A DNA stretch of 54,029 bases from positions 1 through 54,029 of the forward strand of contig JAJFLB010000067.1 of NCBI GenBank assembly GCA_021772915.1, in the 5' to 3' direction. The notes beneath the pieces were generated by a model, which was not told where the DNA came from, made no database searches, and saw only the letters and a list, made by a program, of their open reading frames with translations. Within the stretch, counting starts at the first letter, position 1; each line of letters starts with the position of its first letter. Of this stretch, positions 44,997 through 51,876 are shown in pieces. The translations under genes were made by a program, and so were the position numbers. This DNA is from Gammaproteobacteria bacterium (GTDB lineage Bacteria > Pseudomonadota > Gammaproteobacteria > Xanthomonadales > SZUA-36).

Positions 44997-47435
44997 TTAA
45001 CTGCTAAACAAAAAACGTGGGCGGATTTGGATCTGGATCGTGGCACTCGACTCCGGATAGTTTTCGTAGGTCGCGATGATCCTGTACTCCACGAGGTCGC
45101 TTTCCTCCATCATGAACCCGCTAATCTCACCAGTCACAGGATCAAAGCGCAGACCGGGTGGTAACTTCGGACTGACACTGAACGATACAGGTGTTGGCCC
45201 GTAGATCGTCGGCGCCAGTAAATTGAACTTCTGCCCAACGAAGAGCTTGTGTTCGATCGACGTATACTCTACGAAAGGACGGCTGACCCGGATGTTGATT
45301 GTCGTGTTGTCGGTTGCACCGCCGGGAAAGTTCGCCGTGACGACGTAGTCGGTTGCGGGATACTCTTTCTCGGATAGACCGGTAATCTGTCCAGTCTTTG
45401 TGTCAAAGGCAAGACCGCTCGGCAGACCGGGTTCGATTCGGAACGAATCCGGCTTCTCCACTATGACGATCGGATCGTTCGGCTCGATCTCTTGGCCGGT
45501 GATGTAGATGGTCTGGCCCTTTGCGTAACCCGTGATCGAAGGTACCGGAAAGCTGGTATCGTCGGTCGGATCCGTTTGCATCGAGACCTCCTCGCCGTCA
45601 CCGAAGCCGTCGCCGTCCGTATCCGCATTCCCGGGATTGGTACCGGTGTGGCGCGGACCGGCGAAATAACCCGTATCCGTCTCGACCGCGTCAGACAGGC
45701 CGTCGTCATCGCTGTCTTTGTGAACCGTGCCGATACGAAGGTAGTCGACCTCAAACTTCGAACCGGGACCACCGCCGGGGTCGATGCGGATGCCACTCAG
45801 GGGACTCAAGAGCGCGGGCCCCAGTTCAAACTGCAGGACGTGAAACTCGCCGTCCATCGGCGGTGCGGCATAATTGAAGCTTCGGGCTCCTGCAAATCCA
45901 ATAACTTGCTGCTCAATCCAGAAGAGTTGCCAACCACCGCCGTCGTTTGCGACGAGCTTGATCCGTAATTCCACCTTGGTGAATCCCGGCGGGTTATTAA
46001 GAATTGCGCTTCTGAAGAAGTAGGGGTCGCTGCCTGTTGTCATAGCTTCCAGGATACCGTTGTTGGCTTTAAGGGCGATGGAGTTACTGCCCCAGAGCTC
46101 GGATTTTTTCTCCCAGACCCTAAGCTCGGAATCGGTGTTGAACTCGTTGACACTCACGAATTCGTTGAGGAGTTCGGGAGGATCGAGTACCACCACCGGT
46201 TCCCCGAGCACCGTGATGGCGATCGTGGTTTTCACCGCCGGGAAATTACCGTAGCCGGCGGTGATTACGTATTCCGTTCGGTGACTGGTTGCCAGTGGAA
46301 TCCCTTCGATGGCACCATTGCCTTCATTAATAGTGAGGTTCGCGGGAAGGTCTGGCTTGACGTCACCGATAATGTCGGGATTGGGGCCGAAAAACGTGGG
46401 TTTCAGCGAGATGGTCTGATTGGTCTTGAAGATCACTTCCTTGACCGGGTAAGTGAAAAGCGGGTTACGCACGTCAAGGTGGATGTAGGTCTCCGAGCTT
46501 AGCTCGCCAGGAAATGTCGCGGTGACCAGGTAATCTCTGGCCTCGACCGCAATTTCGGGCCTTCCGGTGATGGTCCCGGTCGTAATATCCAGATTGAGCC
46601 CGGTGGGTAATTCGGGCGTGATCGAGAAAGCAGTTGGCGTTCCACCACTCACGCTGGGCTCGTTCGGTTCGATCTCTTCACCCACAAAATGGCGAGCACG
46701 GCTTTTGGAATACCAATTGAGCGCAGGAACGGGAAATTCGTTCGCGTTATTGGGGTCGGTTCCCAGATCAACCTCTTTGTCATCGGAAAAGCCATCGCCG
46801 TCCGTATCCGCGTTCGCAGGATCCGTACCCGCATCGCGTTTTCCTTTGAAAGTTCCGGTTAGTGTCTCAACCACGTCCGGTAAACCGTCGCCATCGGCGT
46901 CTGCGCTGATCATTCCGATCCGGATGTAGTCGACCTCGAACTGTGTCCCCGCCCCCGCCCCCGGGTCCAGGCGAATGTCAGTGAGGCGACTTGTAATCAC
47001 CTTCCCGAGGTCGTACTGGTAGACGTGAAATTTGTTATCCCCCTCTGGACGGTGGGCGAAGCGACGTGTGCCGGTGAATCCCAAGGCGGAATCCTCTCCC
47101 CAGTAGAGATTCCAGTCGGCTCCATCATCTGAGATAACCCGGATACGAAACTCGACGAACGTCATCTCCGCTTTGGTGTCACTGATGCCTCTCCGGAAGA
47201 TGAATGGGTCGTGGCCGAATGTGTCGACCTCGAGAACCCCGCTTGCAACGCTTAGATTACAAGAGTTCCGGTTCCAGAGCTCAAAGTCGCCAGTCTGGTT
47301 GAAGTCGCCGGCGGCGATATAGTCGTTGAGGATTTCTGGAGGATCGATCTGAAGGTCTTGAGCAAGGGACACCCGTGCAAGGAGCGTCATAACCAGTACG
47401 AGGCCTGAGAATGTTATGAAGGGACTGGAACGCAT
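44997..47435 (-). CDS. Secreted two-fold repeated protein with calcium-binding and Ig-like domains
   Basis: 812 residues with a signal peptide (FSGLVLVMTLLARVSLAQ). The chain is a duplication. Each half has a beta-sandwich module (DPPEILNDYIAAGDFNQTGD; DPPELLNEFVSVNEFN), with sandwich ends EVDYIRIGMI and EVDYLRIGTV; a thrombospondin type 3-like calcium segment (DADGDGLPDVVET and DTDGDGFSDDKEVDLGTDP; DSDDDGLSDAVET and DTDGDGFGDGEEV); and two putative Ig-like (He_PIG) domains, each marked by ITPELPTGLNLDITTGTITG-like strands. It is probably a surface or matrix protein. G+C looks higher than in the neighbours. No enzyme motif. Start at ATG 47435; weak ribosome-binding site. Confidence 0.85.
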   Translation of the reverse strand: MRSSPFITFSGLVLVMTLLARVSLAQDLQIDPPEILNDYIAAGDFNQTGDFELWNRNSCNLSVASGVLEVDTFGHDPFIFRRGISDTKAEMTFVEFRIRVISDDGADWNLYWGEDSALGFTGTRRFAHRPEGDNKFHVYQYDLGKVITSRLTDIRLDPGAGAGTQFEVDYIRIGMISADADGDGLPDVVETLTGTFKGKRDAGTDPANADTDGDGFSDDKEVDLGTDPNNANEFPVPALNWYSKSRARHFVGEEIEPNEPSVSGGTPTAFSITPELPTGLNLDITTGTITGRPEIAVEARDYLVTATFPGELSSETYIHLDVRNPLFTYPVKEVIFKTNQTISLKPTFFGPNPDIIGDVKPDLPANLTINEGNGAIEGIPLATSHRTEYVITAGYGNFPAVKTTIAITVLGEPVVVLDPPELLNEFVSVNEFNTDSELRVWEKKSELWGSNSIALKANNGILEAMTTGSDPYFFRSAILNNPPGFTKVELRIKLVANDGGGWQLFWIEQQVIGFAGARSFNYAAPPMDGEFHVLQFELGPALLSPLSGIRIDPGGGPGSKFEVDYLRIGTVHKDSDDDGLSDAVETDTGYFAGPRHTGTNPGNADTDGDGFGDGEEVSMQTDPTDDTSFPVPSITGYAKGQTIYITGQEIEPNDPIVIVEKPDSFRIEPGLPSGLAFDTKTGQITGLSEKEYPATDYVVTANFPGGATDNTTINIRVSRPFVEYTSIEHKLFVGQKFNLLAPTIYGPTPVSFSVSPKLPPGLRFDPVTGEISGFMMEESDLVEYRIIATYENYPESSATIQIQIRPRFLFSS

Positions 47436-49606: not shown

Positions 49607-49707
49607 CACGTCTTCAGTCCGTCCCGAACTTAGCGAAAAAAATGCGACGCCGGTAGTAGTGTAGAATTTCCCATGTGAGAGTATCTGATTTTCTTTAACA
49701 CTTGCCA

Positions 49708-51876
49708 ATGAACGTAGTACCGATCACACTCTGTAAGCAAGGCAAGAGCCTAAGTAATCCAATTGTGACCGATCAAGTGATTAACAAATGCTACAGCAAG
49801 GTGCTCCCACTGCTGTGCATTGCCGTATTACTCAGTCCAGCAGATGGGCTTTCACTGGATGAGCCAACTGCAGATATCCCTGCTCCCATTCAAGGGGACG
49901 ATCAACATTCGCAAATCAAAACGACTACTGGCAAAATTCGCGACGATGAATTGCTAAACTTTATTTGTGAGCAGATCAAGGCAACCTGGGGACAGGATGT
50001 AAAGTTGATGGTTAACTCTTGTTATGGTGGCGGTCTTCTGGATGACATGGAGCGGGTTTTTGGAGCTGGTGGCGATTGTGAAGGCATGCCCTGGATTGGA
50101 GGGTCGGCCAGTACATGGAAACAACGGGCTATAGGATCCAGCGATAAAGACGTCATAGAATCAGCTCGAAACGAAGCCATACCAAAGTTGGGATCAACAT
50201 GGACGGACTCACTGGCAGGTCATAGCAAGTTAAATTTAAGCAGCGAACCTGGGGTAATTCGTAATGGCAGCACAAGCGACAATGTAATGACAGATCTGCA
50301 AGCTGCCGGGCCGAATGACCAGCATGGTCCAGACGGTACGGGAAAGGAAACGCCCCAGGTGGCTTCCGGTAATGATGGCTACAAAATTCAGTGGAATGCA
50401 GAAAATACCAAACATGAGGCTGTACTCTTTAGCGGGTCAAAGCATTTACGTCATACCCACAACGTTGAAAACGTGGAGGCGGCGCTGGAAAAGACCTGGG
50501 AAAACGAAACCTACAATATAAAAGCCATTACCGAAGGATCAAAGAAGGACCTGACAGATGCGATAAAAGATGCTGCTACTCGGCTTGATGATAACACTCA
50601 ATTGTTACTCTATTTCAGCGGCCATGGCGACAAGCTGAAGAGCGGTTTTAAACCAAAGTGTCTTGGTTTCTTCGACAAGGAGATTTTGGAAACCGAGACT
50701 TGTGCATTTGTCATTGATGATGGTTGGTCCGGTGATTTTTTTGGGAATTATTTTTCCCTGCCGGACGAAATGCCAACACCGACACTCGACCTGCACATCG
50801 AAACATGTGGGGCTTGTGAGACGTGGAGTTATTCACTCAATGGGTACCCATTGGAATTTCCTGTAGTCGACGGCCCGGCGGGTGAACCCTTTATTGCCCA
50901 GCTACCGATTCAGTTTTACCAGCTACGACCGGGGTCACCTGATGCTAACGTGATTGAAATTACCCCACCGCCAATCATCAAGAGCATGACCTTGGGTCAT
51001 GATGCGATATTGCCAAGTACGTCACTGGTACTCTCCGATATGGATCTCGACAGTGGCCCAATCAATGAATTGATACCCGACCAGGTACTGTTACCAGGGC
51101 AAAGTGCGGCATTTTTTGATATTACCCGAGCAGGTGAAGGTGTATTTGTGGAACTGCTTGAAAATGGATTGGCCGTGGTATACGTGTTCTCCCACAACCG
51201 CGATGGTACTGGTCAGTTCTGGATGGCGGGTTTGGGTCGCCAGGAGGGCGCCGGGATTATTGTGCACGACATGCAAATGCCAATCGGAGCGAGCTTTGGT
51301 CCGGCGTTTGACCCCGCAGATGTGGTACGAACTGATTTCGGCTCGCTGTTCTTCCGGCTACCTACCTGTGGGACCAGTGAGGTTCCTGGTCAGCTGTATA
51401 TTTATCCGGAAACTTCTACCAATTACGAGGACTTGCTGAACTTCAAATACAGCCAGCTGGATTTACTCGCGGACTGTACAACGGGTGTGGGCTCAACCAA
51501 TGTCACGCGTTCCGGTTCCTATTTTGATCCCAGCCACAGTGGCGAAGGGATTATCGTCCAGGTATTAACCAATGGTCTGGTCGTTGTGATGTGGTTCACC
51601 TACGACAAAAACGGGAACCAGATGTGGATGCAAGGTACCGGTTCAATCGTTGGTAATACCCTGACAATTGACAACCTCACGACAACCACTGGAACCAAGT
51701 GGGGCTCCGGCTTTGATTCTGCCTCTACTGTGGCAATGCCATGGGGTAAATTGACCATCGTGTTTAGTGGATGTGGACAGGCCACGTTGAGCTATATGTC
51801 CACCGCCGGCTTTGGTAATGGCACGCTCAACATGATTCGATTGACCAACCTTATGGGGCTTACCTGCACGCAATGA
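49708..51876 (+). CDS. Secreted caspase-like protein with reversed Cys/His order and C-terminal WFTYD domains
   Basis: 722 residues from ATG 49708. A hydrophobic signal region lies at residues 30-48 (VLPLLCIAVLLSPADG). Residue 105 is the Cys in VKLMVNSCYGGGLLDD, which resembles the caspase/metacaspase Cys motif. Residue 306 is the His in QLLLYFSGHGD, the His motif, after a beta-strand/helix/strand set (HEAVLFSGSK, VENVEAALEKTWE, YNIKAITEGSKKDLTDAIKD). In ordinary caspase-like peptidases His precedes Cys; here the Cys half comes first, so the fold may be circularly permuted, or two half-domains are joined. A second Cys-rich spot, HIETCGACETW, follows 55 residues after the His. The C-terminal half holds two WFTYD-type beta domains (FFDITRAGEGVFVELL and YFDPSHSGEGIIVQVL, then VVVMWFTYDKNGNQMWMQG). 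Unusual and not assigned to a named family. Confidence 0.75.
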   Translation: MNVVPITLCKQGKSLSNPIVTDQVINKCYSKVLPLLCIAVLLSPADGLSLDEPTADIPAPIQGDDQHSQIKTTTGKIRDDELLNFICEQIKATWGQDVKLMVNSCYGGGLLDDMERVFGAGGDCEGMPWIGGSASTWKQRAIGSSDKDVIESARNEAIPKLGSTWTDSLAGHSKLNLSSEPGVIRNGSTSDNVMTDLQAAGPNDQHGPDGTGKETPQVASGNDGYKIQWNAENTKHEAVLFSGSKHLRHTHNVENVEAALEKTWENETYNIKAITEGSKKDLTDAIKDAATRLDDNTQLLLYFSGHGDKLKSGFKPKCLGFFDKEILETETCAFVIDDGWSGDFFGNYFSLPDEMPTPTLDLHIETCGACETWSYSLNGYPLEFPVVDGPAGEPFIAQLPIQFYQLRPGSPDANVIEITPPPIIKSMTLGHDAILPSTSLVLSDMDLDSGPINELIPDQVLLPGQSAAFFDITRAGEGVFVELLENGLAVVYVFSHNRDGTGQFWMAGLGRQEGAGIIVHDMQMPIGASFGPAFDPADVVRTDFGSLFFRLPTCGTSEVPGQLYIYPETSTNYEDLLNFKYSQLDLLADCTTGVGSTNVTRSGSYFDPSHSGEGIIVQVLTNGLVVVMWFTYDKNGNQMWMQGTGSIVGNTLTIDNLTTTTGTKWGSGFDSASTVAMPWGKLTIVFSGCGQATLSYMSTAGFGNGTLNMIRLTNLMGLTCTQ

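Follow-up and report, generated by a model that had tools for sequence, protein, structure and literature searches.

The protein encoded at positions 49702-51876 on the forward strand of the window, by which we mean the whole stretch of 54,029 nucleotides that was analysed, is most likely a secreted or surface-associated, circularly permuted caspase-fold cysteine peptidase. The Cys-before-His order, the homology of both halves of the domain and the conservation of both residues are established by the results presented below. The juxtaposition of the two residues in a dyad, catalysis and export are inferred, and there are no biochemical data. Among ordinary enzymes, those closest to the permuted domain are of the C13/C14 type. 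A circularly permuted caspase-like domain had been predicted from sequence alone, and this claim is supported by rotation tests, by Pfam searches with de-permuted constructs, by half-domain HMMs and by 25 members with the same order. The order is not due to chance, since the 25 aligned members are alike and the halves score far above column-shuffled controls.

Gene and domain layout

Read from a TTG codon, the reading frame of the gene extends over 724 codons. The original prediction had used an ATG in the same frame (49708), and a GTG at 49777 is possibly the true start, with a more classical signal peptide if it is used. The signal was read by eye and the choice among the three codons remains uncertain. 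We number residues from the TTG, so that the proposed nucleophile is Cys107 (50020-50022, motif NSCYGGG) and the proposed catalytic base is His308 (50623-50625, motif YFSGHGD), with the Cys first and a spacing of 201 residues. Counted from the ATG these are Cys105 and His306, and locating the codons confirmed the residues, the motifs, their order and the gap of about 200 residues that had been predicted. All features given here lie on the forward strand unless stated otherwise. A paralogue in the same genome is 65% identical across residues 17-724. Elsewhere in the window (44997-47435, reverse strand) an 812-residue secreted-looking protein is encoded which, as judged by eye, is made up of two halves that resemble one another, both of them containing DxDxDGxxD calcium-binding-like repeats and Ig-like segments.

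The protein carries a signal-peptide-like hydrophobic segment (residues about 26-48, 49777-49845) that has equivalents in relatives; it was identified by eye only, and the predicted secretion is to this extent an inference. It is followed by the short N-terminal peptide APIQ (residues 61-64, 49882-49893), and a P-x-Q-like motif is found immediately before the Cys half in several relatives, both again by eye. The Cys half (residues 68-223, 49903-50370) is defined by AlphaFold2 secondary structure, by hhalign alignment to ordinary caspase-like proteins and by a half-domain HMM, and comprises an L3-like hairpin, alpha3 (RDDELLNFICEQI), beta4 (KLMVNS-Cys), alpha4, beta5 (WIGGS), an alpha5-like helix and a beta6-like strand in PQVASG. 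The His half (residues 233-316, 50398-50649), defined by AlphaFold2 and by a Pfam C14 match when scanned alone, comprises beta1 (KHEAVLFS), alpha1, beta2, alpha2, beta3 (QLLLYFSG) and the His-Gly pair.

Directly C-terminal of the His half lies a beta segment (residues about 360-425, 50779-50976), Ig-like by eye, which contains a CxxC pair (Cys369 and Cys372) and is mostly strands in the low-confidence full-length AlphaFold2 model. The two C-terminal beta domains of the original prediction are found behind it in tandem (residues about 440-595 and 600-724, 51019-51873), likewise mostly strands at low confidence, so that the CxxC segment has to be added to the predicted layout. Pfam returned no match to the tandem module of the window protein. 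Beyond the paralogue the C-terminal beta module (SGSYFDPSHSGEGI...QMWMQGTG) has 23 more matches in the genome, several of them two per ORF, and in six ORFs that share it, read over their first 420 residues, the partners resemble, by eye, beta-helix or FG-GAP surface proteins. Such surface-type partners are consistent with export of the window protein to the cell surface, and we can tentatively regard the module as an uncharacterised secretion or anchoring module. PEP-CTERM-like anchors, which end some of the Phycisphaerae members (above the NCBIfam cut-off in L018, and with weak Pfam matches in L018, L030 and L031), again indicate the cell surface. In four Phycisphaerae genomes (L078-L081) an open frame of at least 480 residues precedes the permuted caspase-like domain, with EACC-type cysteine motifs in several of them.

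Order and homology of the two halves

In the rotation test the permuted alignment was rotated in five-column steps and aligned by hhalign with ordinary-order caspase-like proteins. The hhalign probability is meaningless with a single target, and only score contrasts were used. With 10 permuted against 34 ordinary rows, the native order scored 69.7 (profile positions 7-88), whereas the arrangement with the His half moved first scored 106.2 (positions 7-145) and aligned the His with the ordinary His and the Cys with the ordinary Cys. Taken alone, the Cys half scored 42.5 and the His half 68.0, as compared to maxima of 17.7 and 16.0 in 100 column shuffles each, and the His half joined to a shuffled Cys half did not exceed 74.4 (100 shuffles). 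The 34 rows were extracted by a His-then-Cys pattern from 38 ordinary loci, of which three (L037, L045 and L055) failed the pattern and one (L057) duplicates L042. This ordinary set of 34/41 had been fetched partly by the His half; a set of 20 fetched with PF01650 only is free of that bias. With 25 permuted against these 20 rows the native order scored 49.3, over the His half only, and the rotated order 76.1; the Cys half alone reached 36.6 (shuffle maximum 20.9) and the His half alone 49.9 (16.2; 60 shuffles each), and 50.0 was the most that the His half reached when joined to a shuffled Cys half (60 shuffles).

Six-frame translations of 44 loci were searched with HMMs of the two half-domains that had been built from the 10 members. 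Of the 15 other loci called permuted, 12 were matched by both HMMs, with the Cys half ahead of the His half, and three (L085, L087 and L098) by that of the Cys half only (iE 0.05). Most other ordinary loci gave the His half only, and two, L094 and L096, gave both halves in the opposite order (iE 0.016 and 0.0005 for the Cys half, 0.0003 and 0.007 for the His half, respectively). HMMs built from all 25 members find both halves in L085, L087 and L098 too, but were built with them. They also detect the two halves in L042, L052 and L097, there with the His half ahead of the Cys half, and they exposed one more permuted protein, L089, in which Cys and DHG are present; this 26th protein is not included in the alignments, the tree and the counts of 25.

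The scanned members either escaped the Pfam and NCBIfam models or were matched over one half only. Pfam Peptidase_C14 matched the whole window protein with 19.2 bits, below the cut-off of 21.4, and over the His half only (profile positions 27-96 of 233); the His region alone (residues 230-351) reached 23.5 bits (positions 26-98) and passed the cut-off. NCBIfam NF047832 likewise covered only the His half of the whole protein (E 0.0005, 19.7 bits, cut-off 140). Among seven whole proteins in native order (window, L013, L011, L018, L030, L031 and L032), C14 was matched by the window protein only and C13 by L032 only, in its Cys half (positions 154-193, E 0.009); the window protein in native order has no C13 match. 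None of five Cys halves (window, L002, L010, L013 and L011) had a caspase-type match in Pfam when scanned on its own. When the halves were swapped back, four of six constructs matched Pfam C13 across the junction (window, E 0.0017; L002, 0.0028; L013, 0.0039; L031, 0.0011), and those of L018 and L030 gave nothing in Pfam at E <= 1. Every C13 match of the permuted family stays below the Pfam cut-off (18.4 bits as compared to 22.8 for the de-permuted window protein). Against the PDB, the best match of the de-permuted profile was the large subunit of caspase-6 (E 0.2), aligned via the HG and Cys region, and the native-order profile matched metacaspase-1 at E 0.47; a PDB sequence search with the whole protein returned no caspase.

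An AlphaFold model of the core (258 residues, six sequences) has a mean pLDDT of 69.6 and a pTM of 0.76, with pLDDT values of about 70 near the Cys, about 59 near the His and below 50 in several loops. Its Cys half shows a hairpin (70-73/78-80), alpha3 (81-95), beta4 (101-106), alpha4 (110-120), beta5 (131-135), a helix (195-205) and a beta6-like strand (219-223), from which 13 residues lead to the His half with beta1 (237-244), alpha1 (255-265), beta2 (271-277), alpha2 (281-292) and beta3 (299-306). Strands are predicted directly ahead of both HG and Cys. The strand and helix pattern sketched in the original prediction agrees with this model, with helix, strand and Cys first and then beta1-alpha1-beta2-alpha2-beta3-His. 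The core shared by caspases and haemoglobinases of clan CD comprises beta1-beta4 and alpha1-alpha3, and caspases have a small sheet between beta3 and alpha3 (PMC4357240). As predicted by the model, which provides no Cys-His distance, the elements correspond to the caspase list including the small beta3-alpha3 sheet, opened in L3. The full-length AlphaFold2 model is poor (pTM 0.40). A Foldseek search of the PDB with the core model returned nothing at E <= 0.001; lumazine synthase-derived capsids, themselves circularly permuted, came first (E 0.28), and caspases appeared within 50 rows only at E 3.6-4.3. With the full-length model the PDB matches were to beta-domain and other unrelated proteins. 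Low scores are to be expected when a permutant is compared by a sequential aligner.

Relatives and origin of the permutation

The aligned permuted set consists of 25 members from 22 genomes of Gammaproteobacteria and Planctomycetota, and the Cys position precedes the His position in all of them, at a spacing of 156-220 residues. His-Gly is invariant and the Cys is present in 24 of the 25; the glycines of CxGG are kept in 23 and 25 and the Ser-Ala after beta5 in 21 and 23 members, respectively. Fifteen loci were added from the 397-genome class search by an ORF scan that required HG and reported the Cys motif, and their conservation is partly due to selection. The 10 members found without a motif filter retain HG in all and the Cys in nine cases, at identities of 21-40% to L018. 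Homologues keeping only one of the two residues, which the original prediction had named as refuting it, amount to one in 25, L017 (L017:2945-5632, Lysobacterales), where Pro replaces the catalytic Cys. This protein, the same as L011, has a Laminin_G_3 domain in front and is a likely pseudoenzyme of the permuted family.

Close relatives are rare, being found in 3 of 61 relatives' genomes and 4 of 39 genomes in the family, with the window genome counted in both. They include the Gammaproteobacteria MAGs OFTM312 and Co_bin.328, one Lysobacterales MAG and one Phycisphaeraceae MAG. In a class sample around the window genome (n=369) seven genomes matched, of which only the window's own has the permuted order; among the six weak loci five have the ordinary order, and the sixth, L037, has no caspase-like ORF and was matched by neither half HMM. 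Around the Phycisphaeraceae genome, itself counted, Cys-half-first proteins were found in 3 of 51 family, 2 of 392 phylum and 18 of 397 class genomes. In the phylum sample 12 genomes matched, two of them with permuted proteins, and 10 of the 11 other loci are ordinary-order as read by eye (L051 is cut off by a contig edge). The 28 matches of the class sample were divided by the motif scan into 17 permuted, seven ordinary and four unclear ones (L089, L091, L095 and L097), and on rechecking into 18 permuted and 10 ordinary ones, with L089 permuted and the other three ordinary-order. In L091 and L095, both from Phycisphaerae, the Cys is apparently replaced (LDTGYYG and FTSSSGM), and these are probable pseudoenzymes. 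The 25 members were gathered with permuted-order profiles and are uninformative on relative frequency. No relatives turned up in one viral-contig scan, one plasmid search or a single-sequence genome contig scan, and no family is common to 10 flanking ORFs from five loci.

We built a tree from the 25 permuted rows, swapped back, and 29 ordinary rows, leaving out twelve near-copies from G586. This Planctomycetota genome has 17 Pfam C13 matches (L053 and L059-L074) in frames of 1,384 to 2,945 codons, and the sequences used from it were extracted by the His-then-Cys pattern. The permuted rows together with L094 and L096 split from the other 27 ordinary rows with a support of 99/96. The permuted or ordinary label needs two changes on the tree (bootstrap range 1-2, with a single change in 7% of 200 bootstrap trees), as compared to a mean of 18.1 after shuffling. 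The AU test does not reject a grouping of all permuted rows in one clade (p-AU 0.45), and L085, L087 and L090 sit on long branches. A single permutation near proteins like L094 and L096 is the simplest reading, and two are also possible. L094 and L096 share DHG and QCFSGGM motifs with the permuted family and are matched by both of its half HMMs, but are ordinary-order Phycisphaerae proteins with their own His ahead of the Cys by 67 and 52 residues, respectively. We regard them as the probable nearest unpermuted kin among the proteins found.

Proposed mechanism, alternatives and known systems

In the arrangement that we propose, the chain would have been opened in loop L3, right after the strand of the catalytic His, and a short linker would connect the old C-terminus (beta6) to the former beta1. 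The resulting order would be alpha3-beta4(Cys)-alpha4-beta5-alpha5-beta6-beta1-alpha1-beta2-alpha2-beta3(His). In the folded protein beta3 and beta4 would still be adjacent, Cys107 and His308 would form the usual dyad, and peptides would be cleaved as in clan CD enzymes, which are marked by a strict P1 preference; both the juxtaposition and the catalysis are inferred. That the two conserved residues form a clan-CD-type dyad appears most likely to us, with the folding together of the halves, hydrolysis and secretion being inferences. The substrate preference is unpredictable from the present data. More speculatively, the mature N-terminus would lie beside the active site, and the P-x-Q segment may serve as a propeptide or regulatory strap, which is no more than a guess. 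A bolder reading, which we offer merely as a possibility, is that of a separate class of caspase-fold peptidases in Planctomycetota and Gammaproteobacteria that would be activated by export and signal-peptide removal or by P-x-Q trimming, and not by p20/p10 cleavage.

Could the permuted caspase fold be real and yet be no peptidase, but a pseudoenzyme or binding domain, as known for pseudo-orthocaspases (PMC6426788)? In favour of this, there are no activity data, L017 keeps the domain with Pro for Cys, the ordinary-order L091 and L095 lack the Cys as well, and one survey found the dyad intact in just 64% of the metacaspases of planctomycetes (PMC3501461). Against it, the members found without a motif filter show near-complete retention of both residues (Cys 9/10, HG 10/10) despite their low identity to L018, as does the larger set (24/25 and 25/25), and we consider this alternative unlikely. 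Less likely still is a domain-swapped dimer, in which the half-domains would pair between chains. There are no data on the oligomeric state and caspases themselves dimerise; however, AlphaFold2 gives one domain from a single chain (pTM 0.76), in which 13 residues separate the beta6-like strand from beta1. An ordinary-order enzyme using His308 with Cys369 or Cys372, with the Cys half as an unrelated domain, is all but excluded: the CxxC at +61/+64 would recall the Cys found about 38-61 residues after the His in most rows of ordinary relatives, but it sits in a predicted strand segment, a Cys at +30 to +95 is absent from 12 of the 25 members and lies in differing contexts in the others, and both hhalign and the half HMMs match the Cys half to the Cys region of ordinary proteins.

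A CxxC follows the His at +58 to +64 in the six gammaproteobacterial members. Of the others, seven have a single Cys at +55 to +71 and twelve have none; Cys369 and Cys372 were rejected as catalytic Cys because of the 12 members without a Cys at +30 to +95. An upstream HG as an alternative His was found in only one of the 25 (L031, 37 residues ahead of the Cys).

The permuted peptidase remains the preferred reading. The order of His and Cys in the sequence is one feature for assigning proteins to clan CD, and it is reversed here. A natural permutant opened inside p20 would illustrate the tolerance of the caspase fold, and would be a single-chain caspase-like protease, its activity being inferred, in which one terminus lies free at the loop of the active site. 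The presence of the ordinary-order kin L094 and L096 in the same bacterial class offers a testable evolutionary route, and caspase homologues of prokaryotes may be undercounted in surveys built on the usual order. No natural permutant with Cys before His was found in a partial search of the literature that covered few subscription journals, which is no proof of novelty; permutation is unmentioned in the main text of two clan CD reviews (PMC4357240, PMC12445089).

How does the family compare with known systems? Permuted papain-like enzymes and cpRAS GTPases are natural precedents for permutation in enzyme superfamilies, in unrelated folds (PMC10318531, PMC2430557). The engineered cpCasp2 demonstrates that a permuted caspase can be active as a single chain (PMC7760212), but it is man-made and places the small subunit ahead of a whole large subunit (residues 170-333), with His still before Cys. 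With the C13 (legumain) and C14 (caspase/metacaspase) families of clan CD, the permuted family has in common that each half aligns, that the core elements are predicted and that His-Gly and Cys follow hydrophobic strands (HG is present in 25/25 members and Cys in 24/25, the strands before them being predicted for the window protein). It differs from them in the opposite order of the halves, the dyad order of the clan, His and then Cys, being reversed throughout the alignment of 25 (the Cys position holds Cys in 24 and Pro in one). The closest natural parallel in kind is provided by the type III metacaspases of algae, in which the caspase-family domains are reordered with a p10-like domain at the N-terminus (PMC5756287). 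The p20 of type III metacaspases stays whole, with His before Cys. An N-terminal p10 with an intact p20 is not what the permuted family shows. Here the chain is broken between the His and Cys strands, p20 itself is split and the dyad order is reversed, and the members are secreted-looking bacterial proteins. The original proposal of a new arrangement for the clan therefore stands, qualified by the different natural rearrangement of the type III metacaspases.
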